DNA of 64,000 nt, from assembly GCF_001592945.1 (NCBI RefSeq), contig NZ_LRPB01000023.1:310001-374000 (forward strand), given 5' to 3'. Under the pieces are notes generated by a model. It was not told where the DNA came from and ran no database searches. It saw nothing but the letters and a program-made list of their open reading frames with translations. The DNA comes from Roseivirga seohaensis. Its GTDB lineage: Bacteria > Bacteroidota > Bacteroidia > Cytophagales > Cyclobacteriaceae. Position numbers and translations under genes: made by a program. Shown here piece after piece: positions 19,236 to 31,851 of the stretch (the stretch's first letter is position 1; each line of letters begins with the position of its first letter).

Positions 19236-20330
19236 ATGCATCTCGAATCTATCGGCCTTAACAATTTCAAGAACTACGAAAGTTTAAAGATCAACTTTTC
19301 GAAGGAAATTAACTGCCTTGTAGGTAAGAACGGAAGCGGTAAAACTAATCTGTTAGATGCCATTTATTACCTCTGTATCACTAAAAGCGCCTTTAACCCC
19401 CAAGACAACCAATGTGCCCTCCATGGCCAAGACTACTTTTCATTACGAGGAAAAATTTCTCTGGGCGAGCGAACTCACACCTTTGTTTGCGGTTTGCAGC
19501 TGGGAAAAAAGAAATTAATCAAGCTAGACGAGAAGCCTTATAAGAAAGCGAGCGAGCATATTGGTAAGTTTCCGGTGGTGCTAATTGCGCCTAACGACAC
19601 CGATGTAATCCGCAATGGCAGTGAAGATCGAAGGAGGTTTTTTGATGGAATTATTTCGCAAACCAGCCAAAGTTACCTCAACGACCTGATTCAATATAAC
19701 CACGTACTCAAGCAGCGCAACAGTTTGCTGAAACAGTTTGCCGACCGTGATTTTTTCGATGCGGCCTTGCTTCAGCAATACACCGATCAGCTGATTGAAA
19801 TTGGCCAGCGCATTTACGAGGTAAGGAAAAACTTTACTCAGGCTTTCCGTCCGTTGGTGCAAAAGCATTATGCCTTGCTTTCAGAAGAAAGTGAGCAAGT
19901 AGACTTACAATATGAATCGGACTTTGGGCAGGACATTGCTACTTTGTTTAAGCAAAATCAGAAAAAGGATTTAATTCTGAAACGCACCAATGTGGGCATT
20001 CATAAAGATGAGTTTCTATTTGAAATGGAAGGCGAACTGATTAAAAAGTTTGGGTCGCAAGGGCAGCAGAAGTCTTATTTGATTGCACTCAAACTTGCGC
20101 ACTTCGATTATATTTTTAATGAAACGGAAATTAAGCCGATGCTGCTACTCGATGATATTTTCGATAAACTCGATGATTTCCGCATTACCAAACTGATGGA
20201 AATGGTGGCTTCTGATGCTTTCGGTCAGATTTTCGTTACCGATGCCCGCCCAGAGCGCAGCCAAAAAATATTCGAAGCCATTGGCCATGAAGTGAGGTTT
20301 TTTGAGGTGGTAGATGGAAAGTTGGGTTAA
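19236..20330 (+). CDS. recF: DNA replication and repair protein RecF
   Basis: A 364-residue protein from the ATG at 19236 (MHLESIGLNNFKNYESL); the upstream open frame lacks family features. Walker A GKNGSGKT is at 30-37, the signature region at LKLAHFDYIFNETEIKPMLLLDDIFDKLDD carries Walker B, and FRITKLMEMV and IFVTDARPER close the domain. RecF loads RecA on gapped DNA with RecO and RecR. The length matches the family. The phosphorothioation-like island begins about 150 bp downstream. Confidence 0.96.
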   Translation: MHLESIGLNNFKNYESLKINFSKEINCLVGKNGSGKTNLLDAIYYLCITKSAFNPQDNQCALHGQDYFSLRGKISLGERTHTFVCGLQLGKKKLIKLDEKPYKKASEHIGKFPVVLIAPNDTDVIRNGSEDRRRFFDGIISQTSQSYLNDLIQYNHVLKQRNSLLKQFADRDFFDAALLQQYTDQLIEIGQRIYEVRKNFTQAFRPLVQKHYALLSEESEQVDLQYESDFGQDIATLFKQNQKKDLILKRTNVGIHKDEFLFEMEGELIKKFGSQGQQKSYLIALKLAHFDYIFNETEIKPMLLLDDIFDKLDDFRITKLMEMVASDAFGQIFVTDARPERSQKIFEAIGHEVRFFEVVDGKLG

Positions 20331-20483
20331 CCTTTTGATTCTCTTTTTCCATTATTCTGATGTTCATATGGCTGGTTTTCAAAACTATTGAAATCAGGTT
20401 AAGAAGAAAGAACCCTTTCCGCTCTATCAATGGCAATAAATTGATTACTTTGTATCCTTAGAAAAGAATTCTCAAGAGAGAAG

Positions 20484-21368
20484 ATGACAATAGAAAATAT
20501 AGAAAAAATAAAATTTACTTTCTCAGGACACGACTCCTTTCAATGCCGTCAGCTTTGGCTGAAAAAGGGGTATGACTTTGTTAAGGAAGGAAGGAATTTC
20601 AATGATGATGATGCGGTTATTAAACTCGGAGTTGGAAAAAACATGGTTTCATCTATTCGCTTTTGGTTAAAGGCTTTTAATATTATTGACCATAAAGATA
20701 TTCCTACTGAATTCGGTAGTCGATTGTTAGATGATGAAAATGGGTATGATCCATTTTTGGAAGAAGAAGCAAGTCTTTGGCTCTTGCATTATCAGCTAGT
20801 GAAAAATGGGTTTGCATCTATTTACTCCTTAATTTTTAATGAATTTCGAAAGGAAAAGTTATTCTACAATAAAGAAACCTTTGTGAACTATGTCAAAAGA
20901 ATTGGTGAAGGTAATCCAGGTTTGAATTTCAATGAAAATACGGTTGCCAAAGATTTTATAGTTTTTACTAACCTGTATAAAAATGACCCTGAAAGTAAAG
21001 ATGTTGAGGATAGTTTTTCTGGAATTCTATCTGAAATAGAGCTTTTAAAGACCACGAGAAAAGGAAAAGAAGAACAATTTTACATTGAAAATACTGAAAG
21101 AGACAATCTTCCAGAAGCAGTTGTCTTATTTTCAATCCTCGAGAATTCTAATTACGGAAATTCTATAAGCTTAAACTCTTTAGAGTTCGACTTTAATAGT
21201 CCGGGTTCAATTTTTGCCTTAAATAGGCCTGGCTTGATGAATAAAATATCGGACATTGTTGATGGCTTTAATGACATCACTTTTACTGACCAGGCAGGAA
21301 TTAAAGAGTTGCAATTCAAAAATAAACTTGACCCCTACAAAACTTTAGATAATTACTATGGCAAATAA
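20484..21368 (+). CDS. DUF4007 protein, SspB-like, of a DNA phosphorothioation set
   Basis: A 294-residue protein. Residues 10-65 (FSGHDSFQCRQLWLKKGYDFV, then IKLGVGKNMVSSIRFWLKAFNI) are the hallmark of DUF4007. Genes of this family are linked to DndC-like sulfur-transfer enzymes, and the Ssp phosphorothioation protein SspB carries this domain (from memory). In the Ssp system SspB is reported to nick DNA for single-strand phosphorothioation; whether this protein nicks cannot be seen, since no clear nuclease motif is visible. It is the first of eight tightly packed genes; its end overlaps the ATPase start by 11 bases. Confidence 0.8.
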   Translation: MTIENIEKIKFTFSGHDSFQCRQLWLKKGYDFVKEGRNFNDDDAVIKLGVGKNMVSSIRFWLKAFNIIDHKDIPTEFGSRLLDDENGYDPFLEEEASLWLLHYQLVKNGFASIYSLIFNEFRKEKLFYNKETFVNYVKRIGEGNPGLNFNENTVAKDFIVFTNLYKNDPESKDVEDSFSGILSEIELLKTTRKGKEEQFYIENTERDNLPEAVVLFSILENSNYGNSISLNSLEFDFNSPGSIFALNRPGLMNKISDIVDGFNDITFTDQAGIKELQFKNKLDPYKTLDNYYGK

Positions 21369-24300
21369 TTTCACGACATCGGTAAATATTATAAGGGATA
21401 CTGACAGGGATTTCAGCTATATCCCAACCCCAAATGCTAAGCAAATTGTAGGTCAAATAGTTAATGACTTTAAAAAAGGTATTCGCTCTTTTAATGTAGT
21501 TGGAACTTACGGTACAGGAAAATCTTCATTTCTTTTAGCATTTGAGCAAAGCATTACAGGAAAGAAACGATACTTTGATCCAAATTTTCTTACCAACCCC
21601 AAGTTTGATTTTGTAAAATTTATTGGCTCCTACTCTTCCATAGTTGAGCAGTTTTCAGATGCTTTCGAAGTTCAAACAAATAAAAATCAACAAGAGAATA
21701 TACTTTCCGAGATATTCAACCGATACCATTCCATGGGGAATGACGATAAAGTCTTATTTCTCCTGATTGACGAATTTGGTAAATTTTTAGAATATGCGAG
21801 TAAGCACAACCCCGAAAAAGAATTATATTTTGTTCAACAATTAGCAGAGTTCTGCAATAACCCAAAGCACAATATTGTTTTAATTACTACTGTTCACCAA
21901 AGCTTAGAGTCCTACGCTTATTCACTAAGTAAAACTCAACAACAAGAGTGGACAAAAGTAAAAGGGCGTTTTCGTGAAATCACTTTTAACGAACCTGTTG
22001 AACAGCTTTTGTTTTTAGCTTCGGAATATGTAGCTGAGAACTTTGAAACCAAGGCTTCAGAATTAGAAATTGAGAAATGCTTAAAGCTTACTACCGAAAC
22101 AAAGGCATTTAACTTTAATAAAGATTACCTAAAAGAAATAGCTTCTAAATTATATCCGCTTGATATTCTTTCAGCAAATATTCTCACACTTTCATTACAA
22201 AGATATGGACAAAATGAACGCTCATTGTTTTCCTTTCTTGAATCATCTGACCATACAGGCCTAACGAAATTCAACAAACAAGAAAATCCGTTTTACAATT
22301 TGTCAAACGTTTATGATTATCTGAATTTCAATTTCTATTCGTTTTTAACCTCAAGATATAATCCTGACTTTTCCGCATGGAGTTCCATTCGTTCATCAAT
22401 CGAAGAAGTGGAAAGAGCATTTGATTCAAATATCAATGATTACATTAAGGCTGTTAAGACGATTGGACTTTTAAATATCTTCTCCGCAAGTGGTTCAATC
22501 TTAGATTTGAATTTCTTTATCGATTATTTAAAAACTGCCTGCGGTGTATCAGATGCCAAAGAAGTCATTAAGAATCTAGAGACAAAAAATATTATCCGTT
22601 ATCGCTCGCATTCAAGGAGGTTCATCCTATTTGAAGGAACAGATTTGGACATTCAAACCGCACTGATTGAAGCCGGGAATAGAATTTCTGAGGTTGTTGA
22701 TATCACTACGCTGCTAAACAAACATATCCGATTCAACCCAGTCTTTGCAAAGCAGTATTCATTTACCACAGGAACGCCACGATATTTTAAGTTTGTCATT
22801 TCAGACTACCCAGAGCTTGGGAAAATTCCAGAAGGAGAAATTGATGGCTATATAAATCTTGTTTTTAATAGCAAGCTGAAAGAAATCGACATCCAAAATA
22901 TCTCCAAACAAGAAGAAGAGGCCATCATTTATTGTTTTTTCAACAACTCTGCTGAAATTAAAAATTTGTTATTCGAGATTGAAAAAATTCAGAAAGTACA
23001 TGATGAAAACAAAGATGATAAAGTCGCAAAGAGAGAGTTAGAAAATATAATTGAATCACAAATTCGTTTATTAAACCATTACATAACTGACAGTATTTAT
23101 TCAGGTAGCAAAGATGTGAAGTGGTTTTTTAGTGGAGCAGAAAAGAAAATCTCTGACAAAAAGGACTTCAACAAACTACTTTCCCAAGTTTGTAGCATTG
23201 TATATGATGCCACCCCAGTTTTCAAAAACGAACTTGTGAACAAACATAAAATTTCATCTTCCATTCATACGGCCAAAAAAAATTATTTCAAGGCCTTATC
23301 AAACAATTGGGATAAAGAACACTTAGGTTTTGACGATTCTAAATTTCCACCAGAAAAGACCATTTATTTATCCCTATTAAAAGAAAACGGCATTTCGCCA
23401 ATTAGAGAAAATGCAACAGATGTAATTTCTATTGATAGAACTTCTTCATTCTACAAGCTTTGGTGTGCTTCAGAAGACTTTATAGAAAGTGCCAAATCTG
23501 AACAATTAAAGGTCTCTGAATTAAGTGAATTACTGAACAAAAGACCTTTCAAGCTTAAGCAAGGTTTGATTGACTTTTGGGTTCCTACATTCTTATTTTT
23601 GAAACGAGATGATTTCGCCATTTTCAATGATGACAGCTATATCCCTAATTTGTCAGAAGAGAATTTGGAGTTAATAGCCAAATATCCTGAAAAGTATTCA
23701 ATAAAGACATTTGATATTGAAGGTGTAAAGCTTGATATTTTTAATAGTTATCGAACATTCTTAAACATTGCTACCGAACAAAAATTCGATAACAACTCGT
23801 TTATTGAAACCATAAAGCCATTTATTGTTTTCTACAAACAGTTGCCTGAGTATAGCAAAAACACAAAGAGACTTTCGCCTTCTGCTATTAAAATTAGGAA
23901 GGCCATAATTACGAGCAAAGACCCAGAAAAAACTTTCTTTGAAGCGTTTCCAAGTGCCCTAGGCTTGACGCTCTCAGCTCTACAAAAAGATAAATCTAAA
24001 CTTCAAAACTATACCATAAGCTTACAAGATGCTGTTAAAGAATTGCGGACTGCTTATGATGAATTACTTATGCGTTTTGAAGATTTCATTTGCAGCGAAT
24101 TCGTTGGACAATCTTCAAATTTTGTAGAATATAAAGGACATCTTCAAAAGCGTTTCTCAAAATTAAAAAAGCATATGCTTTTGAGTAATCAAAAGACTTT
24201 TGTGCAACGCTTAGACTCCCCTTTAGACGACCGAAAAGCTTGGCTAAACTCCATAGCACAAGCCATATCTGGAAAAACACTCGAAACCTTTTCTGATGAG

Positions 24301-24579
24301 GATGAAATATTGCTTTATGAAAAATTTAAAGCCATGATTTTAGAGTTAGATAGCTTGACTAAAATTTCTAACAATGATATTGATGATAGCAAAGAAGAAG
24401 TTATCGGGGTTAAAATTGATTCGTTCTTTAGCAAAATTGACCCAAAAGTGGTCAGAGTGCCCAAGAATAAGAGTAAAGAAATTGAGCACTTGAAAAATGA
24501 GCTCAGAAATAAATTAGGTACCGACAACACATCAAATATTGCTGCTGTCTTGAACCTTCTTAAAGAGTTATTACAATGA
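21358..24579 (+). CDS. Large P-loop ATPase, SspC-like
   Basis: A 1073-residue ATPase. Walker A GTYGTGKS is at 49-56 and Walker B VLFLLIDEFGK has D138/E139, followed by a sensor-like ITTVHQS segment. The remaining 850 residues are largely helical and without a motif I know. Position between the DUF4007 gene and the PP-loop gene matches sspB-sspC-sspD order, so a role as the motor or scaffold of the modification complex is inferred. It resembles in size the large ATPases of BREX-type systems, but those come with other partners. The stop overlaps the next start by 4 bases (ATGA). Confidence 0.8.
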   Translation: MANNFTTSVNIIRDTDRDFSYIPTPNAKQIVGQIVNDFKKGIRSFNVVGTYGTGKSSFLLAFEQSITGKKRYFDPNFLTNPKFDFVKFIGSYSSIVEQFSDAFEVQTNKNQQENILSEIFNRYHSMGNDDKVLFLLIDEFGKFLEYASKHNPEKELYFVQQLAEFCNNPKHNIVLITTVHQSLESYAYSLSKTQQQEWTKVKGRFREITFNEPVEQLLFLASEYVAENFETKASELEIEKCLKLTTETKAFNFNKDYLKEIASKLYPLDILSANILTLSLQRYGQNERSLFSFLESSDHTGLTKFNKQENPFYNLSNVYDYLNFNFYSFLTSRYNPDFSAWSSIRSSIEEVERAFDSNINDYIKAVKTIGLLNIFSASGSILDLNFFIDYLKTACGVSDAKEVIKNLETKNIIRYRSHSRRFILFEGTDLDIQTALIEAGNRISEVVDITTLLNKHIRFNPVFAKQYSFTTGTPRYFKFVISDYPELGKIPEGEIDGYINLVFNSKLKEIDIQNISKQEEEAIIYCFFNNSAEIKNLLFEIEKIQKVHDENKDDKVAKRELENIIESQIRLLNHYITDSIYSGSKDVKWFFSGAEKKISDKKDFNKLLSQVCSIVYDATPVFKNELVNKHKISSSIHTAKKNYFKALSNNWDKEHLGFDDSKFPPEKTIYLSLLKENGISPIRENATDVISIDRTSSFYKLWCASEDFIESAKSEQLKVSELSELLNKRPFKLKQGLIDFWVPTFLFLKRDDFAIFNDDSYIPNLSEENLELIAKYPEKYSIKTFDIEGVKLDIFNSYRTFLNIATEQKFDNNSFIETIKPFIVFYKQLPEYSKNTKRLSPSAIKIRKAIITSKDPEKTFFEAFPSALGLTLSALQKDKSKLQNYTISLQDAVKELRTAYDELLMRFEDFICSEFVGQSSNFVEYKGHLQKRFSKLKKHMLLSNQKTFVQRLDSPLDDRKAWLNSIAQAISGKTLETFSDEDEILLYEKFKAMILELDSLTKISNNDIDDSKEEVIGVKIDSFFSKIDPKVVRVPKNKSKEIEHLKNELRNKLGTDNTSNIAAVLNLLKELLQ

Positions 24580-25679
24580 GCAAAGTAAGACATGTTTTAG
24601 GCATATCAGGAGGGAAAGACAGTGCGGCTTTGGCAATTTATGTTAAGACAAAGTATCCTTCGATTAATTTAGAGTTCTACACCTGCGACACAGGTAAGGA
24701 ACTAGATGAAACCTATCAATTGATAAAAAACCTCGAAGTATATCTCGGAATTAAGATTGAGCTTTTACAAGGTGCCGAAAATAGTTCAGAAGATCCTTTT
24801 GACCACTTCTTAAAAATGTATGGTGGTTTTCTACCTTCATCCCAAGCACGCTGGTGTACCAAAAAATTAAAGCTTGCCCCTTTTGAAAATTATGTAGGCG
24901 ATGACCCAGTAATCTCCTACGTTGGAATCAGAGGTGATGAAGAAAGAGAAGGTTATATTTCAACTAAAAAGAACATTCAATCCATATTTCCATTTCGTAA
25001 AAATATTTGGAGTCAAGATGTTGTCACAAAATTGCTGTCAAACCAAAATATGGAACAGCTAATAACAATGTCTAAAAACATAGACTTTGGTAAAAACCAA
25101 GAAAAAGCATACCAAACCATTACTCGAAAAATAGACACAAGTTTCACTCTTGACCAAAAACTAAATATTCTATTAGACTCAAATGTGAAAGCATTTAATC
25201 ATTTGGTTTTTGATTTTTTAAAAACAACAGATTATCCGTTAGCAACAGAAGCCTCGTTTCCGCTTCTGGAAAATGATGAAGTCTTAGTGAGAGATGATAT
25301 TTTTCGAATTTTGGAGGAAAGTGGAGTAGGTGTACCTGCCTACTACAACAAAATAGAGTTTGAAATCAATGGGAAAAAAGGAGAATACGCAAGAAGTCGC
25401 TCTGGTTGTTTCTTCTGCTTTTTCCAACAAAAGATTGAATGGGTTTGGCTTTATGAGCAACACAAGGATTTGTACCTAAAAGCAATGGAATATGAGAAAG
25501 ATGGATATACTTGGGCACAAGGCGAAAGCTTAGAGGATATCATCAAACCTGAAAGAATAGAGCAAATCAAGGAAGAGTACATTAAAAGAATGGAAAGAAA
25601 ATCAAAAGCTAAATCACCTTACCTAGTGGATATTTTAGATGATAACGGGGATGAAGGGTGTGCAGCTTGTTTTGTGTAA
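24576..25679 (+). CDS. Phosphoadenosine phosphosulfate reductase-family PP-loop enzyme, DndC/SspD-like
   Basis: A 367-residue protein. The PP-loop SGGKDSAAL begins at residue 11, and CDTGKELDET and RWCTKKLK (C94) follow. Candidate iron-sulfur cysteines are C278 and C281 (RSGCFFCFF) and C362/C365 near the C-terminus. DndC and SspD are ATP pyrophosphatases that activate the DNA backbone for sulfur insertion. A role in cysteine or methionine sulfate assimilation is unlikely, given the neighbours and the GCFFC pattern. It overlaps the ATPase gene by 4 bases. Confidence 0.88.
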   Translation: MSKVRHVLGISGGKDSAALAIYVKTKYPSINLEFYTCDTGKELDETYQLIKNLEVYLGIKIELLQGAENSSEDPFDHFLKMYGGFLPSSQARWCTKKLKLAPFENYVGDDPVISYVGIRGDEEREGYISTKKNIQSIFPFRKNIWSQDVVTKLLSNQNMEQLITMSKNIDFGKNQEKAYQTITRKIDTSFTLDQKLNILLDSNVKAFNHLVFDFLKTTDYPLATEASFPLLENDEVLVRDDIFRILEESGVGVPAYYNKIEFEINGKKGEYARSRSGCFFCFFQQKIEWVWLYEQHKDLYLKAMEYEKDGYTWAQGESLEDIIKPERIEQIKEEYIKRMERKSKAKSPYLVDILDDNGDEGCAACFV

Positions 25680-25701
25680 TATAAATCTAATAACCAGGAA
25701 T

Positions 25702-25917
25702 ATGGAACAGAAATTTAAAAATTGGAAGCACCTTGATTCTAGCTATTGGGTAAATCAAGAAACAAATTGGGTGGTAAAAGAAATCAGCAGAGAAGATGAA
25801 GAACAATGGGTAATCCTTGATGACCGTGATATGATGATTTCGTGCGAATGGAAAGATAACAAAGAGGATTGTATGGAAGAAGCTGATAGTATTTGTTTGG
25901 AAGCTGTGACACTTTGA
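25702..25917 (+). CDS. Small acidic tryptophan-rich protein in the phosphorothioation operon
   Basis: A 71-residue protein with no recognised domain. ATG at 25702 follows AACCAGGAAT, and the longer frame upstream overlaps the PP-loop gene. It is acidic and rich in tryptophan (NWKHLDSSYW, NQETNWVV, EEQWVILDD, SCEWKD). Spacing to neighbours is short (22 and 5 nt), so it belongs to the operon. It may be a small adaptor or immunity-like partner; this is only inference. Confidence 0.65.
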   Translation: MEQKFKNWKHLDSSYWVNQETNWVVKEISREDEEQWVILDDRDMMISCEWKDNKEDCMEEADSICLEAVTL

Positions 25918-25922
25918 CAATC

Positions 25923-27068
25923 TTGATAAATAAAATATCATACCTCGACTATAACTCCACTACCCCCATCGACCCAAGGGTACTTGAGGCAATGTTGCCG
26001 TTTTTAAAGTACAACTTTGCCAATCCAAGTAGCACTCACCATTTTGGTCAAAGCATCAATGAAAAGGTAAAGCAGGCCCGTGAGCAAATAGCTAATTTTA
26101 TTAAGGCTGAACCCAATGAATTGTTTTTTACGAGTGGGGCAACAGAAGCCATTAATATTGCCCTTAAAGGAGTGGCGGAATGCTATTCTAGCAAAGGAAA
26201 ACACATTATCACGGTTTCAACGGAACACAAAGCAGTAATAGATACTTGCAAGGATTTAGAAAGAAAGGGTTTTGAGGTAACTTATTTACCCGTTCAATCG
26301 AATGGATTAATAGATTTAAAAGATCTTCAAAAAGCTATCCGAAATGACACTATTTTGGTTTCGGTCATGTATGTCAATAATGAAACCGGAGTAATTCAAC
26401 CCATCAACGAAATTTCAAAAATAGCTCACGAAAAGGGAGCTTTATTTATGTCCGATGCCACGCAGGCCGTTGGTAAAATTGATGTTAATGTTGATGATTT
26501 AGGTATTGACTTGCTCTCTTTTAGTGGACATAAAATGTATGCTCCAAAGGGGATTGGAGCCCTGTTCGTAAGACAAAAAGGTAATAAAGTAAAACTTACT
26601 GCACAAACACACGGAGGTGGACACGAACAAGGTTTGAGAAGTGGCACTTTAAACGTCCCTGGAATTGTTGCCTTAGCAAAAGCCTGTGAAATTGCTAGTG
26701 AAGAAATGCTGCAACGTGAAAATGCTATTTCAGAATTAAGAGATACATTGGAAAGTGAATTATTAAAACTACCAAACACTTCACTGAATGGTGATTCCAA
26801 AATAAGAATCTACAATACCACCAATATTTGTTTTAAAGGACAAGACGCCAATGTGTTGATTGGCAGAATGAAAGGCATTGCTGTGTCCAATGGCTCAGCT
26901 TGCTCCTCAGCTGTAGTAGAGCCCTCACACGTTTTAAAAGCGATGGGGATAAGTGATGACGATGCGTTTGGTTCATTACGTTTTTCATTGGGCAAATTGA
27001 ATACAAGAGAAGAGATTAGAAATGTTATTCAAGCAATTCACAAAATGTTAATACCAACTTTAACTTAA
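25923..27068 (+). CDS. Cysteine desulfurase, SspA/DndA-like, NifS/IscS family
   Basis: A 381-residue pyridoxal-phosphate enzyme. No ATG lies before YLDYNSTTP; the TTG at 25923 gives MINKISYLDYNSTTPIDPRV, the usual family N-terminus, and starts 5 nt after the previous stop. The PLP lysine K204 is in SFSGHKMYAPKGIGAL and the active-site cysteine C327 in VSNGSACSSA. It takes sulfur from cysteine as a persulfide. Within this operon it should feed the PP-loop enzyme for DNA sulfuration, though it could also serve Fe-S assembly for it. Confidence 0.9.
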   Translation: MINKISYLDYNSTTPIDPRVLEAMLPFLKYNFANPSSTHHFGQSINEKVKQAREQIANFIKAEPNELFFTSGATEAINIALKGVAECYSSKGKHIITVSTEHKAVIDTCKDLERKGFEVTYLPVQSNGLIDLKDLQKAIRNDTILVSVMYVNNETGVIQPINEISKIAHEKGALFMSDATQAVGKIDVNVDDLGIDLLSFSGHKMYAPKGIGALFVRQKGNKVKLTAQTHGGGHEQGLRSGTLNVPGIVALAKACEIASEEMLQRENAISELRDTLESELLKLPNTSLNGDSKIRIYNTTNICFKGQDANVLIGRMKGIAVSNGSACSSAVVEPSHVLKAMGISDDDAFGSLRFSLGKLNTREEIRNVIQAIHKMLIPTLT

Positions 27069-27074
27069 ATAATT

Positions 27075-28799
27075 ATGATATCTGCCGAAAACCAAATAAG
27101 GTTCGTAAGTGATTCAACAGCACTTCTCTCAATGCGTGATTCTGATTTTGATGCCTACAGTGCTATTGGTGAAGTCATAGATAATTCCATTCAAGCCGAT
27201 TCAAAAGAAATTAAGATTCGAGTTAAAGCCCATAAGGAAGCAAGGCAAAGAATTGGTGAGTTTCAAGTGGTTGATTGGATTGCATTCGGGGACGATGGTT
27301 CTGGCATGAACAGGGATACATTACATAGATGTTTACAACTAGGGTTTTCTAGTAGGTATAACGACAGATCGGGTATTGGGAGGTTTGGAGTTGGAATGAC
27401 TTTGGGTGCAATCAATCAATGTAAAAAGGTTGAGGTTTATTCTAAAGTGAAAGGTGGAGTTTGGCTTTACACATTGATAGATATTGATGATATAACTGGG
27501 ACTCCTGCCAAAATGAACTCTATTCCAGAGCCCAAGGAAAGTAAGATTCCCGAGGAATTTGCAGCTTTGGTAAATCAAGAACAAGGGACTTTGGTAATTT
27601 GGAGTAAATACGACAAACAACCGGTGAGTGCTGATTCAATGGTTAAGGAAATGGATATTTGGATTGGACGCACCTTCCGAAAGTTCATATGGGGAGAAGT
27701 TGATGTCAATGGATCGACTAATAAATTGAATATTGAAATCAACAATGTGAAAGTTTTAGCCCTTGATCCTCTTCATGTAAAAAATGAACGATTTCCGAGT
27801 GATAAATCCTCTTATCAAACAGAGCCAATAGTTATCGATTGGCCAATCCCTACAGAAGATGGAGAAATTTTCAAAGACCTTGCCTCAAATGAAATAAAGA
27901 TACAATTATCTCTGATCGACCCATCTCTTCGAGATTATCAAGGTGTTGGTAACGCTAAAGAAACAAGAGATCGATTTATTGATAGAAACGAAGGTGTTTC
28001 GATCCTAAGAAATGGTAGAGAAGTTTTTTATGGTGAAATTCCTCACTGGAAACCAGCTTTTGAGGAAATTGATCGCTGGTGGGGATGCGAAATCTCGTTC
28101 GATCCTATTTTAGACAAGGTGTTTGCCGTAAAAAACATAAAGAGAGGCGCAGTACCAATCACCACGCTTAAGCAGTCTATAAATGAGAAAATTGTACCAA
28201 CAATTAAAACATTTAGAGAACAAGTTTCAGAGCATTGGAAAAAGCGAAAGGTAGAAAAAGCGCAGGAAAAGCTAAAAGAGCAAAGTGATAATGGAACTGC
28301 CACTGGTCATGAAGAAGCAGAAGGTGTAGCAAAAAAATCAGAGACTCAAAAACCTCAAATAACACCTCAAACTCAAACCAATGCAAATGTGCTGGCTTCA
28401 CAAATTCATGCCAACGAAACCGCGGAGCAACAAGCAGCCTGGGCTACAAAATTTGCCAGCCAACCATACACCATTATAGATGAAAGCTGGAAATCTCCTG
28501 AATTTATTGAGATTCATCCCTTAGGAGGCTCAGATGTAATCAAGTATAATTTGAAGCACCCATTTGTTGAAGAGTTATACAGTCTGGTTGATCAACTACA
28601 ATCCTCAGAAGCGGATCAAGAACTAGCTATGAAGCTAAAAAGCCTAATAGATCTGCTGATAATAAGTTATGCAAAATCGGAATCCATGTTTGATAAGGAT
28701 AGGGAGTTTAAAGCCGAGCGATTCTTCGAGGATTTAAAGATTAGCTGGGGGCAATACCTGAAAAGTTATTTGGAGACATGGAAGTCAGAAAATTATTAA
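27075..28799 (+). CDS. GHKL (MORC-like) ATPase of the island
   Basis: A 574-residue protein with a Bergerat ATP-binding fold. N-box AIGEVIDNSIQAD (E33, N37), G1 box FGDDGSGM (71-78) and G2 box GIGRFGVGM (100-108) are complete. Middle region YRDGREV-like (SILRNGREVFYGEIPHWKP, about 315-335) resembles the S5 transducer of MORC/Hsp90-type ATPases. A low-complexity, glutamine/threonine-rich linker (about 395-450) joins a helical tail. MORC-like ATPases occur in bacterial restriction and defence neighbourhoods. It begins 6 nt after the desulfurase gene and one base before the helicase gene, so it should work with them. Confidence 0.85.
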   Translation: MISAENQIRFVSDSTALLSMRDSDFDAYSAIGEVIDNSIQADSKEIKIRVKAHKEARQRIGEFQVVDWIAFGDDGSGMNRDTLHRCLQLGFSSRYNDRSGIGRFGVGMTLGAINQCKKVEVYSKVKGGVWLYTLIDIDDITGTPAKMNSIPEPKESKIPEEFAALVNQEQGTLVIWSKYDKQPVSADSMVKEMDIWIGRTFRKFIWGEVDVNGSTNKLNIEINNVKVLALDPLHVKNERFPSDKSSYQTEPIVIDWPIPTEDGEIFKDLASNEIKIQLSLIDPSLRDYQGVGNAKETRDRFIDRNEGVSILRNGREVFYGEIPHWKPAFEEIDRWWGCEISFDPILDKVFAVKNIKRGAVPITTLKQSINEKIVPTIKTFREQVSEHWKKRKVEKAQEKLKEQSDNGTATGHEEAEGVAKKSETQKPQITPQTQTNANVLASQIHANETAEQQAAWATKFASQPYTIIDESWKSPEFIEIHPLGGSDVIKYNLKHPFVEELYSLVDQLQSSEADQELAMKLKSLIDLLIISYAKSESMFDKDREFKAERFFEDLKISWGQYLKSYLETWKSENY

Positions 28800-28800
28800 A

Positions 28801-30441
28801 ATGCTCTTTAGTAATTTAACAAAGCCCAAACTTCAAGAACTAATCAGTGAGTCCGTTTTGGATCGACTGGAAAGAATTATCCCCGTTATAAAGGGGGATG
28901 CCACCGACCCAAATGAGATTTACCGGAAAGATACATTAGTCAAAATATTTACATCATTTTCAAATTCAAATCTATTCAAGGATAAGGGATTCCTCAGTGA
29001 GTTACTAAATACTACTTCAGAAGAAACAATTGATCGCATTTGTGAGGAAACAGAAATATCAATAAGCGGAAAAAGCTTTAAGCAAAAGACAGAAGCTTTA
29101 TTAAAAAAAGGGTGGACTGATTACGAGTTTTGTTCGAAGTTTCTATCAGTTGCCGAATTGCCTGATTCTTTCTTGCCAATAAAGCAGGAACCTTTTCTTC
29201 CTGAAGAGGATTGCCTGCCTCCAATAGCTCCTTTTAAGACGCTTAAGGACTACCAAACTGGTGTATTCCAGCAGAGTATGGAGCTCATCAAAATCTTGAA
29301 TTCAAGGTTTATTGTTCAAATGCCTACGGGTTCAGGTAAGACGCGAACATCCATGGAAATTATTACAGATGTACTCTGTAAGAATCCAGAAGGAAGCATC
29401 GTGTTTTGGCTTGCGCATTCTGAAGAGCTCTGCGAACAGGCGGTACAGTGTTTCAAAGAAGTTTGGGAGCACGTTGGAAATAAAAGAGTGAAGGTTTTTC
29501 GGGTTTGGGATAAAGGAAAACTCAGCTTTACTTTTCCAGAGTCGGCTTTTATGGTTGGTGGTTTTCAGAAACTTCATGCCTTACTGAAAAAGGATCAAAT
29601 CCCATTTAATGAGGTAAAAAAACGAATCGTTCTTTTGGTTATAGATGAGGCGCATAAAGTTTTGGCCCCTACGTATTTGGAAGCTACAAGAGCTTTAATA
29701 GGTGATACCACCAAAGTAATTGGGCTCACTGCTACACCAGGTAGGCATATCGATGATATGGAAGAAAATAAATCACTTTCGGATTTTTTCTTAAACAAGA
29801 TCATCACCATAGAATCAGCGGGTAATCAATCGGTAATTCAATACCTAAGGGAAAAGAAGGTGCTGTCACGAGCCACTTTCGAGCCACTAATTACCAATAT
29901 CAATTACGAATTAGACGATAAACAGAAGAAGCATCTTCAAACCTTTTATGATTTCCCAGAAGGATTATTGAGAAGGATTGGCAATGATGATTTCAGGAAT
30001 CTAGAGATCGTAAAAAGAATTGATAAAGAATGCTCAGATAGTAATCCACAAATTATATTCTTTGCTTGTAGTGTGGATCAATCCAAGTTCATCTGTTCAT
30101 TACTTGTCTATATTGGATATAATGCAGCACATGTTGACGGGGGAACGGAAAAGCCCATGAGGCAGAAATTGATTGATGATTTCAAGAGCGGAGAGATTCA
30201 AATCATCTGCAACTATGGCGTGTTGTCCACCGGATTTGATGCGCCAAAAACGGATGTTGTATTTATTGCAAGACCCACAAGATCCATCGTACTGTACAGT
30301 CAAATGATAGGCAGAGGATTAAGAGGTCAGGCTATAGGTGGAACTGAAAAGTGTAAGGTTATTACGGTTAGGGACAATATCATTGGCCTACCAGATGAGG
30401 ATGACATTTTTGATTATTTCGATGAGTATTTTGATAAATGA
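28801..30441 (+). CDS. SF2 DEAH-box helicase of the island
   Basis: A 546-residue helicase. Residues 1-140 are an unrecognised accessory domain. Motif I MPTGSGKT (174-181), motif II IDEAHK (282-285 DEAH), motif III LTATPGRH and motif VI QMIGRGLRG are all intact, and the helicase C-terminal domain has SVDQSKFICSLL and TGFDAPKTDVVF. It is like the translocase cores of type I/III restriction enzymes, without a visible nuclease domain; the PLD gene that follows may supply that. It overlaps the next gene by 4 bases. Confidence 0.9.
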   Translation: MLFSNLTKPKLQELISESVLDRLERIIPVIKGDATDPNEIYRKDTLVKIFTSFSNSNLFKDKGFLSELLNTTSEETIDRICEETEISISGKSFKQKTEALLKKGWTDYEFCSKFLSVAELPDSFLPIKQEPFLPEEDCLPPIAPFKTLKDYQTGVFQQSMELIKILNSRFIVQMPTGSGKTRTSMEIITDVLCKNPEGSIVFWLAHSEELCEQAVQCFKEVWEHVGNKRVKVFRVWDKGKLSFTFPESAFMVGGFQKLHALLKKDQIPFNEVKKRIVLLVIDEAHKVLAPTYLEATRALIGDTTKVIGLTATPGRHIDDMEENKSLSDFFLNKIITIESAGNQSVIQYLREKKVLSRATFEPLITNINYELDDKQKKHLQTFYDFPEGLLRRIGNDDFRNLEIVKRIDKECSDSNPQIIFFACSVDQSKFICSLLVYIGYNAAHVDGGTEKPMRQKLIDDFKSGEIQIICNYGVLSTGFDAPKTDVVFIARPTRSIVLYSQMIGRGLRGQAIGGTEKCKVITVRDNIIGLPDEDDIFDYFDEYFDK

Positions 30442-31388
30442 CTATGCTTTTCAAAAACGGATTTGATCTTCAACCCAAACTCAGCGAATACATCAATCGT
30501 TCGCAAAGACTTTTTATTTTCTCACCATATATAAAATTGAAAACGCTAAAGACGCTAATCGATGGACAGAAAAATGTTAAAGCAGTTTTTGTCAGGTGGG
30601 AAACCAAAGATATAATTCTTGGCGCATCAGACCTAGAAATTTATCCGTACCTCAAATCGAAAGGAATTTTACTTTTCAGAAATTCACGATTACATCTCAA
30701 AGCATATCTTGACGAATACAAAAATTGTTTTCTCACAACTGCAAACATTTCTTCACGAGCGCTGAACCTTCCACCTTATTCAAGGTACAATTATGAAATA
30801 GGAACATTAGTAGAGGATTTGGCTATTGAGGACCGTTTGTATTTTCAAATCATTGAAAGCGAAAGCGTTTTAATAACTGATAATATTTATAACCAGCTTA
30901 TTGACCAACTGCCTGAAAAGAAACGTGAATTCCCCAACGAAGATGATTTCGATTTTAAATTTGAGTCACCCGACAAGGATTTTCTTATTTCATCTCTACC
31001 AATGACCTATAGCGTTGAAACACTTTTTAGAATATATATGGATACAGAATTTGTAAATGAAGTAGAACTCAATTGTGCATTACACGACTTGGCTATATAT
31101 AAAATACCTTTGGGACTTCCTTCAAGTAAATTTAGAGAAAAATTAGTTGATGCTTTTTTTTCACATCGATTCATTGAATGTTTTTTAGAGAATTTAAAAG
31201 GCTCTAATGAAATTTATTTTGGAACTGCAAAAGAATGGATTCATAAAAACTGTACCGATTCTCCTACTCCTAGAAAGTGGGAAATCACAGAAAATATTCA
31301 AATACTTTATAGATGGATTGTGAAATTGGGCAGTGGTAAATATGCAGTTGACAGACCTAATTATTCTGAAAGATTATTCAAAGTTTAA
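30438..31388 (+). CDS. Phospholipase D-family (HKD) endonuclease-like protein
   Basis: A 316-residue protein. A single HKD-type motif is visible, RLHLKAYLDE...FLTTANIS, with H86, K88 and N103; the acidic residue of HxKx4D is an E here. One motif per chain implies a dimeric active site, as in the PLD nucleases of several restriction systems. The rest (about 150-316) is unrecognised and helical. It is the last gene of the operon, with ATGA overlap with the helicase gene. A nuclease role is likely but not proven. Confidence 0.75.
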   Translation: MTMLFKNGFDLQPKLSEYINRSQRLFIFSPYIKLKTLKTLIDGQKNVKAVFVRWETKDIILGASDLEIYPYLKSKGILLFRNSRLHLKAYLDEYKNCFLTTANISSRALNLPPYSRYNYEIGTLVEDLAIEDRLYFQIIESESVLITDNIYNQLIDQLPEKKREFPNEDDFDFKFESPDKDFLISSLPMTYSVETLFRIYMDTEFVNEVELNCALHDLAIYKIPLGLPSSKFREKLVDAFFSHRFIECFLENLKGSNEIYFGTAKEWIHKNCTDSPTPRKWEITENIQILYRWIVKLGSGKYAVDRPNYSERLFKV

Positions 31389-31851
31389 AACTCACCACTT
31401 ATAAAAGTGAAGAATTAAACACAATTATGAGGTACTGCCTTTGTTAGTTGAAACAGGCCTAACTTCTATTGCTCCAGTTATTCTTGCTCTTGGTCTTCCC
31501 GCTCTCCTAGCAACTCTAAAGCCTTCGTCAATTGAATGGCATTACTAGCAATGTATTAATTTCTTATTTGAATCATAATGGCCATCACCGTGGCCAAATG
31601 CTGTACTACAATTCTTTACGCTTCAATTTTCTTTCACCCAATTGACTCTACTTTTATTTGAGTTCCATTGGTAGGTCAAAAGTCACGTTTCTTAATGTAT
31701 GTCGCATGATTTATATAATCTTCTGATCTCCAAAACTTAAAATTAGGTGGAATTAAACAAGTTTAAACAGTTTTAAGCATCGAAGTATCATATTAGACAA
31801 CCATTTGCGTAACCACTTACGTATAATCTCTATTTACATTTAAAACTGCTT
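31389..31851 (+). other. 463-bp intergenic region at the right boundary of the defence island
   Basis: No intact gene. It contains a DinB-family gene remnant (31520-31612), a weak hairpin CACTT/AAGTG just after the PLD gene, and a small inverted repeat CGTAA/TTACG (31808-31821) near the next gene. No clear promoter matching TAnnTTTG is seen before the DinB gene. Confidence 0.5.
31520..31612 (+). pseudogene. DinB-family gene remnant
   Basis: In one frame from 31520 the translation contains VLISYLNHNGHHRGQML (31553-31603), which matches residues VISYLDHNAHHRGQMV of the intact DinB gene 0.7 kb downstream, including the metal-binding HxxxHH. Stop codons flank the match (a TAA at 31517-31519 in frame) and there is no start, so it is a decayed copy. 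Confidence 0.75.

Follow-up and report, generated by a model that had tools for sequence, protein, structure and literature searches.

The 64,000-nt stretch of Roseivirga seohaensis DNA analyzed here (positions 310,001 to 374,000 of contig NZ_LRPB01000023.1, hereafter the window) holds a run of eight open reading frames (ORFs), all on the plus strand and spanning 20484-31388, which we read, with a probability of about 0.77, as a two-part restriction-modification cassette based on DNA phosphorothioation (PT). Its first half would be an Ssp modification set and its second half, a trio made of a MORC-type ATPase, a helicase and an HKD (phospholipase D-like, PLD) protein, would be the restriction arm. 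Because Ssp genes and such a trio are also paired in distantly related bacteria, the operon together with the trio probably represents a kind of sulfur-based antiviral defense not described so far. An initial annotation, made from the letters of the window alone, had already proposed that the trio restricts for an Ssp PT system, a proposal now supported by recurrent linkage in 21 loci. The ORF list bears out its eight closely spaced same-strand genes in position and strand, with intergene distances of, in order, -11, -4, +22, -25, +6, +1 and -4 nt, where the 25-nt overlap presumes an upstream TTG start for sspA; translation may in fact begin further downstream than this TTG at 25893.

Family scans (PADLOC and Pfam) found SspB, SspC, SspD and SspA encoded together in the window, that is, a full SspABCD set, and agreed with the names that the initial annotation had given to the genes, the PLD name being weak on the window protein alone. 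Judged by its sequence, the first half is clearly an SspB-C-D-A single-strand PT set, as had been claimed, with all four genes present and the catalytic motifs intact: Walker A (GTYGTGKS) and Walker B in SspC, SGGKDS and two CxxC pairs (278/281 and 362/365) in SspD, and SGHK and SACSS in SspA. Cys278/281 is kept in 32/32 aligned SspD proteins of the long and short types, and Cys362/365 in 31 of the 32, the exception being a copy cut by a contig end (L044 in our numbering of loci) and too short for the last pair. In the literature, SspB is the DNA-binding subunit, with a triple winged helix (PMC10853773), and an extra domain plus a Cys-rich part is common to type 4 BREX PAPS reductases and some SspD proteins (PMC12839542). 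The 71-aa protein listed between sspD and sspA does exist as an ORF (x71), but its status as a gene is doubtful: the library scans of the window proteins gave it no family match, and its best non-self match among the loci compared, at an E value of 0.18, is not convincing, so that x71 may not be a real gene. The B-C-D-x-A order, flagged earlier as unusual, proved peculiar to the window locus within the loci sampled.

The first member of the trio had been labeled a GHKL ATPase, which is right but too broad. A profile built from four relatives and compared with the PDB at E ≤ 0.01 gave nine matches, all nine to MORC2, MORC3 or MORC4 (best 2e-6), making MORC-type the more precise name. The GHKL N and G motifs are present (EVIDN, DDGSGM and GRFGVG, with GTLVIW found by eye), and the segment GVSILRNGREV fits, again by eye, 10 of the 11 positions of the S5-domain motif GhXhhpXXRhl, printed as MORC-specific (PMC2292703); the single mismatch is an E where h is expected. 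By these sequence features the protein belongs to the MORC-type family. Its closest model in the defense library was MzaB, at merely 1.6e-11 (PADLOC), and with the NCBIfam model NF041932 of MzaB it scored 48.9 bits against a cut-off of 850, far from membership in MZA. Scanning viral contigs with the MORC alignment returned 145 pattern matches with no relative among them, and no MORC relative was found in the phage records searched.

The second member, with an intact DEAH motif, came closest to the models of RadD, Hef, the Dnd restriction domain TIGR04095 and PbeA, without reaching the cut-off of any that has one; the PADLOC match to PbeA (1.1e-21) covered part of the model, and Pfam detected no PLD domain in this helicase. 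The third member looks like an HKD-type putative nuclease. The earlier PLD claim is weak when the window protein is taken alone (PLDc_2, 17 bits, under the Pfam cut-off of 27), and is backed by homology: a protein at the same gene position on a Hymenobacter plasmid (L134), with 24.8% identity (6e-11), passes the PLDc_2 cut-off at 30.2 bits, plasmid homologues at this position are annotated as phospholipase D family, and the motif HxK...(D/N)...(S/T)xN is present in 7/7 aligned relatives. The best Foldseek match of its predicted structure, non-significant at an E value of 0.093, was SauUSI (PDB 7clg). SauUSI is an HKD plus superfamily 2 (SF2) restriction enzyme, a single fused protein attacking methylated DNA, and unlike the window operon it comes without MORC and without modification genes.

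The link between the trio and Ssp genes was found in named genomes, in genomes of the class and on plasmids. Scanning the contigs of named genomes with MORC alone, a search that detects close relatives only, gave four loci, 4/4 near sspA or sspBCD: Marinoscillum (L030), Nitrincola (L031), a Flavobacteriales metagenome-assembled genome (L032) and Chitinophaga (L033, cut by a contig end). Of 395 class genomes, 21 had SspD relatives at E ≤ 0.001 (strong, E < 1e-100, in 12, the own genome included), six had HKD relatives (strong, E < 1e-50, in four, own included) and 27 had MORC relatives (strong, E < 1e-20, in four). The four genomes with strong HKD matches are the four with strong MORC matches, all have a strong SspD, and in all four no more than 5 kb separates sspD from the MORC and HKD matches. 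With the own genome excluded, the three strong-HKD genomes all fell among the 11 strong-SspD genomes of 394 (Fisher test, p = 1.6e-5), at thresholds for "strong" that were chosen after the lists had been inspected.

Plasmids extended the range. Searches by tblastn with the window MORC (12 records) and with the class II MORC of locus L045 (21 records) gave a union of 24 records, all of which were inspected (in Nocardiopsis, one of two places). Ssp genes were present in the inspected stretch of 14, including all 13 with a class II E value ≤ 3e-53; these came from cyanobacteria (Planktothrix, two Trichormus, Geminocystis and Cyanobacterium HL-69, the latter with sspA only), alphaproteobacteria (Pannonibacter, Pleomorphomonas, Roseobacter, Agrobacterium, Mesorhizobium and Aminobacter), Hymenobacter and Treponema, the fourteenth being Rhodobacteraceae SC52. 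Altogether, MORC lies near Ssp genes in 21 distinct loci of Bacteroidota, Pseudomonadota, Cyanobacteriota and Spirochaetota, a count that omits the second Trichormus, a more distant GHKL gene beside sspD (L036) and a Dnd locus (L108). Family profiles for these counts were built from nine loci (window, L030-L033, L036, L038, L039 and L045), which therefore match by construction. A helicase is present in 20 of the 21, the HKD family in 18 and SspD in 18 (not in L033, L139 or L149), L033 being seen only as far as MORC before the contig edge. Two layouts occur, MORC-helicase-PLD in six loci (window included) and helicase-MORC-PLD in 15, and the trio may sit before, after or facing sspBCD; the linkage is kept despite changes of order, and with very different SspBCD types. 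Plasmid A of Trichormus variabilis ATCC 29413, for instance, has the order B-C-D-x-x-DndB-helicase-MORC-PLD-A. The earlier proposal would have failed had homologous sulfur operons never co-occurred with the trio; they do so in four phyla and in varied orders, which supports the restriction-arm reading.

Some of these loci hold additional genes. In Nitrincola a PC4-domain protein is encoded between MORC and helicase (L031:11697-12323), and L132 has a 210-aa protein in the same place; the PC4 domain defines a family of single-strand DNA binders. In two loci a 359-aa protein without a Pfam family follows MORC (L146:9028-10107 and L148:13798-14877); that of L146 partially matches the PADLOC "Endonuclease" effector, and the protein is possibly another type of nuclease in the HKD slot.

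In a MORC tree of 54 rows, the six MORC-helicase-PLD loci grouped together (support 100/99), as did the 15 helicase-MORC-PLD loci (95/94), and a single branch (97/95) takes in both groups along with 10 MORC rows from plasmids that are not linked to Ssp. The Ssp/Dnd-linked label, carried by 23 rows (including L036 and L108, which lie outside this branch), required four changes on the tree vs 17.7 when shuffled, with 0/500 shuffles as low. None of 20 more distant MORC loci had an Ssp, helicase or HKD family match. A C5-methylase motif was found in 14/20 of them by a strict pattern and in 17/20 by a loose one, compared with 0/21 and 1/21 of the trio loci; thus, one lineage of MORC modules goes with sulfur genes and its relatives apparently with methylation. 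On two Vibrionaceae plasmids (L135:10001-14273 and L141:9974-13865), a lone MORC lies near a 551- to 554-aa PAPS-reductase-family protein, DndC-like in L135 (5.2e-27), where a cytosine methylase is found further on.

Several observations weigh against reading the trio as an Ssp restriction arm, beginning with the late choice of thresholds mentioned above. The association weakens to p = 1.6e-4 when two weak HKD matches without strong SspD (genomes G225 and G152; E ≤ 0.001) are added, and to 1.1e-3 when all SspD matches are counted as well. L146 and L148 have the other 359-aa protein in place of HKD, sspA is the only Ssp gene seen in L139, and close to two trio loci (Pannonibacter L136 and Trichormus L144) the annotation includes methylases of other kinds. 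The score of the window HKD protein is below the family cut-off, and the AlphaFold models, each from a four-row alignment, are weak for MORC (mean predicted local distance difference test, pLDDT, 51.6) and moderate for the HKD protein (66.7, with a helix-rich C-terminal half), for which Foldseek found nothing at E ≤ 0.001 and low-confidence winged-helix matches only. Finally, in the inspected stretches only 4/16 close sspD loci (window included) carry the trio and 12/16 do not; one of the latter, L036, has the more distant GHKL gene with no helicase or HKD match. The trio therefore does not always follow the sulfur genes, and the pairing raised as a check in the initial annotation is not obligatory.

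Two of the 12 loci lacking the trio (L044 and L048) run into the end of their contig. A PbeA-like helicase fusion is present in three close sspD loci, L034, L040 and L042; the L034 HKD-helicase fusion was scanned (PbeA, 1107 bits) and lies with DndB and an SMC-like ATPase, while those of L040 and L042 were judged from size, gene order and a weak helicase match. One (L035) has a DUF262 protein and a kinase, and other close sspD loci carry different genes. These different arms indicate that restriction arms are swapped around a conserved modification core, and the trio looks like one such swappable arm beside SspE, SspFGH and Pbe. Its parts also recombine, to judge by the uneven identities between the window and L030 (MORC 92% and helicase 97%, but HKD 40%, SspD 56% and SspC 41%) and between the window and L045 (HKD 75%, SspC 42% and MORC 25%); no link was seen between the divergence of HKD and that of SspBCD. 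In Agrobacterium L146, a MORC-helicase pair is next to a full SspFGH (SspF 2.8e-237, SspG 5.9e-219, SspH 2427 bits), which argues that the two are separate modules; the start of an sspD, cut at the end of the stretch, puts two arms at one Ssp locus. Two of the swapped arrangements can be described further. L034:10506-18549 has a window-type SspBCD(A), DndB, the PbeA fusion and an SMC/LmuB-like ATPase, a Pbe-like arm that comes with Ssp rather than Dnd. In L035:4909-9425 the genes after SspBCD encode a DUF262 (NsnA-like) protein and a protein kinase, and an 826-aa protein on the opposite strand has a sub-cut-off GHKL match.

Comparison with known systems places the trio as a putative further Ssp restriction module built of known protein families. 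SspABCD-SspFGH of Vibrio anguillarum FF-93 likewise combines SspBCD and a cysteine desulfurase with an adjoining three-gene arm, in which SspF contains Walker A and the end of SspH resembles FtsK (PMC8092258). Among the PADLOC matches listed, no SspF, SspG, SspH, SspE or DndFGH model matched the trio proteins, and the SspF, SspG and SspH models matched none of the eight proteins of the operon. A search of the window genome gave no SspF match, with its control also silent, and SspG was searched for in the window proteins only. The SspH model matched once in this genome, by its last 358 positions (1408-1765), in an 855-aa frame elsewhere; since the match is partial and 8/14 control genomes were also positive, it is probably the chromosomal FtsK. 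SspABCD-SspE shares its modification half with the window operon, and SspE is a DUF262-DUF1524 protein (PMC12707154); DUF262 (PF03235) had 0 matches in the window genome (G000), with the control positive in 8/14 genomes. That Ssp systems need SspE or SspFGH, as the initial annotation held, does not agree with a published survey, where 2,211 of 2,678 sspBCD sets had neither nearby (PMC8092258).

The prokaryotic MORC and paraMORC restriction-modification operons predicted in 2008 (Iyer 2008, PMC2292703) and MZA combine, like the trio, a MORC GHKL ATPase, an SF2 helicase and a nuclease, and a few of the former have an HKD domain on the helicase. Their neighborhoods frequently include DNA methylases, whereas the mark in the window comes from sulfur genes, and PT is unmentioned in the parts of that paper covered. 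By analogy with these parts, the trio follows the logic of the predicted MORC operons. A 2025 review gives three restriction branches, DndFGH with SspFGH, SspE and PbeABCD (PMC12707154), and the words GHKL and MORC have 0 occurrences in it, as in the main text of PMC12839542; GHKL and MutL have 0 in the main text of PMC10853773. No paper on a MORC or GHKL arm of Ssp was found among those listed by the literature searches, in which preprints and subscription papers were thinly covered, and within this scope the earlier statement that the arrangement is undescribed is upheld.

For the mechanism, we propose that SspA would draw sulfur from cysteine and SspD, with two CxxC pairs and perhaps an Fe-S site, would hand it to the DNA backbone where SspC with SspB locates the site, giving host DNA with single-strand phosphorothioates. 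The MORC ATPase might then act as an ATP-driven dimer clamp closing on DNA, the SF2 helicase might translocate and the HKD protein nick or cut, PT deciding whether the trio attacks. We infer that host DNA carries PT and that the proteins form a complex, cleave DNA and defend against phages, the modification steps from characterized Ssp systems and those of the trio from knowledge of the families. We lean slightly toward PT blocking the trio, as with SspFGH and DndFGH, rather than licensing it, as with SspE and Pbe. The licensed form of the restriction-arm reading, in which the trio would be inert unless host DNA has PT and may act by blocking replication, not by cutting, appears possible but on the doubtful side. 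It is favored by the best PADLOC match of the window helicase, PbeA, and by PbeABCD itself, which needs PT and leaves virus DNA intact, its PbeA joining HKD and SF2 domains (PMC6459918). DndCDEA-PbeABCD has HKD and helicase domains in common with the trio, but in the known system PbeA is a fusion that acts with a DndE and an ABC ATPase of CxC type (PMC10853773), whereas in the window HKD and helicase are separate proteins and the operon falls outside PbeABCD. Against the licensed form stands the lack of a PbeC/PbeD-type partner in the window, where MORC takes its place.

We consider it improbable that the trio is an independent antiphage system of MORC type, similar to MZA, merely sharing defense islands with Ssp. 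The weak MzaB similarity, the more distant MORCs with C5-methylase motifs and without Ssp, and the 10/24 MORC plasmid records without Ssp in the inspected stretch (Nocardiopsis, two Vibrio, Photobacterium, Leisingera, two Roseivivax, Paracoccus, Roseomonas and Agrobacterium pusense) would fit such a system, but the tight gaps in the window and the proximity in 21 loci speak against it, strong HKD relatives occur only alongside SspD in the 395 genomes, and the non-Ssp plasmid MORCs fall outside both trio groups of the tree. Least probable of all is an aid to modification, with helicase and MORC exposing single strands for sulfuration by SspBCD, which would suit the packing as one operon and the marking of one strand only by Ssp (PMC8092258), but PT arose in Escherichia coli that had received IscS-SspBCD from Vibrio anguillarum and no such genes (PMC8092258), 12/16 close sspD loci do without the trio, and its third member resembles a nuclease.

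MORC ATPases silence transposons in plants and animals (published abstracts), and bacterial MORCs were predicted to work with DNA methylation (PMC2292703). If the trio is indeed the restriction arm of an Ssp set, they would here be tied to a DNA mark other than methylation, and a simple host would allow a bacterial MORC to be examined alongside its mark. As an arm recurrent in four phyla of the sample, the trio is a candidate partner for some orphan sspBCD sets. Going further, we suggest tentatively, at somewhat under even odds, that it is a separate branch of PT restriction that explains part of these orphans and in which the MORC clamp or the C-terminal half of the HKD protein reads the backbone sulfur; in that case a silencing ATPase of the MORC family would have a phosphorothioate mark as its input.

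Table 1. Positions of the operon genes and of the surrounding insertion in the window
Feature	Position	Strand	Assignment and evidence
sspB	20484..21368	+	DUF4007; PADLOC SspB 8.9e-121; PF13182 249.7 bits (cut-off 27)
sspC	21358..24579	+	1073-aa BrxC/ORC-type ATPase; PADLOC SspC 1738 bits, model positions 1-1038 of 1039
sspD	24576..25679	+	PP-loop (PAPS-reductase-like) sulfurtransferase, long 367-aa type; PADLOC SspD 3.1e-93; PF01507 30.5 bits
x71	25702..25917	+	71-aa ORF, part of ORF 25639-25917; matches no family
sspA	25893..27068	+	IscS/DndA-type cysteine desulfurase; PADLOC SspA 8.1e-170, DndA 6e-169
MORC-type GHKL ATPase, putative restriction subunit 1	27075..28799	+	HATPase_c_3 75.6 bits; PDB profile matches
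DEAH SF2 helicase, RadD/PbeA-like, putative subunit 2	28801..30441	+	ResIII 77.7 bits, Helicase_C 56.9 bits
Single-motif HKD (phospholipase D-like) putative nuclease, subunit 3	30438..31388	+	PLDc_2 17 bits; homology; conserved motif
Stretch missing from sibling species G014, ~11.46-kb insertion	20325..31787	.	blastn

Counts of promoter-like (42 vs 39.3, standard deviation [SD] 6.0, in shuffles) and terminator-like sites (11 vs 8.0, SD 3.2) showed no excess. The operon lies within an insertion, as window positions 20324 and 31788 adjoin in sibling G014 (L107), where recF directly precedes a DinB-family gene (blastn); family scans gave the flanks of the missing stretch as a RecF-type ATPase and the DinB family. 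The recF/dinB site is also empty in G001 and holds other genes in G006. At the same site, sibling G004 (L108:6371-14839) has a Dnd cassette that encodes DndC (1.8e-144), an ATPase of PbeC/DndD type, a fusion of DndE with a HerA/FtsK-like translocase, a GHKL ATPase and, at 60% identity to the window SspA, a DndA/SspA. The site looks like a hotspot where an Ssp cassette in one sister species gives way to a Dnd cassette in another.

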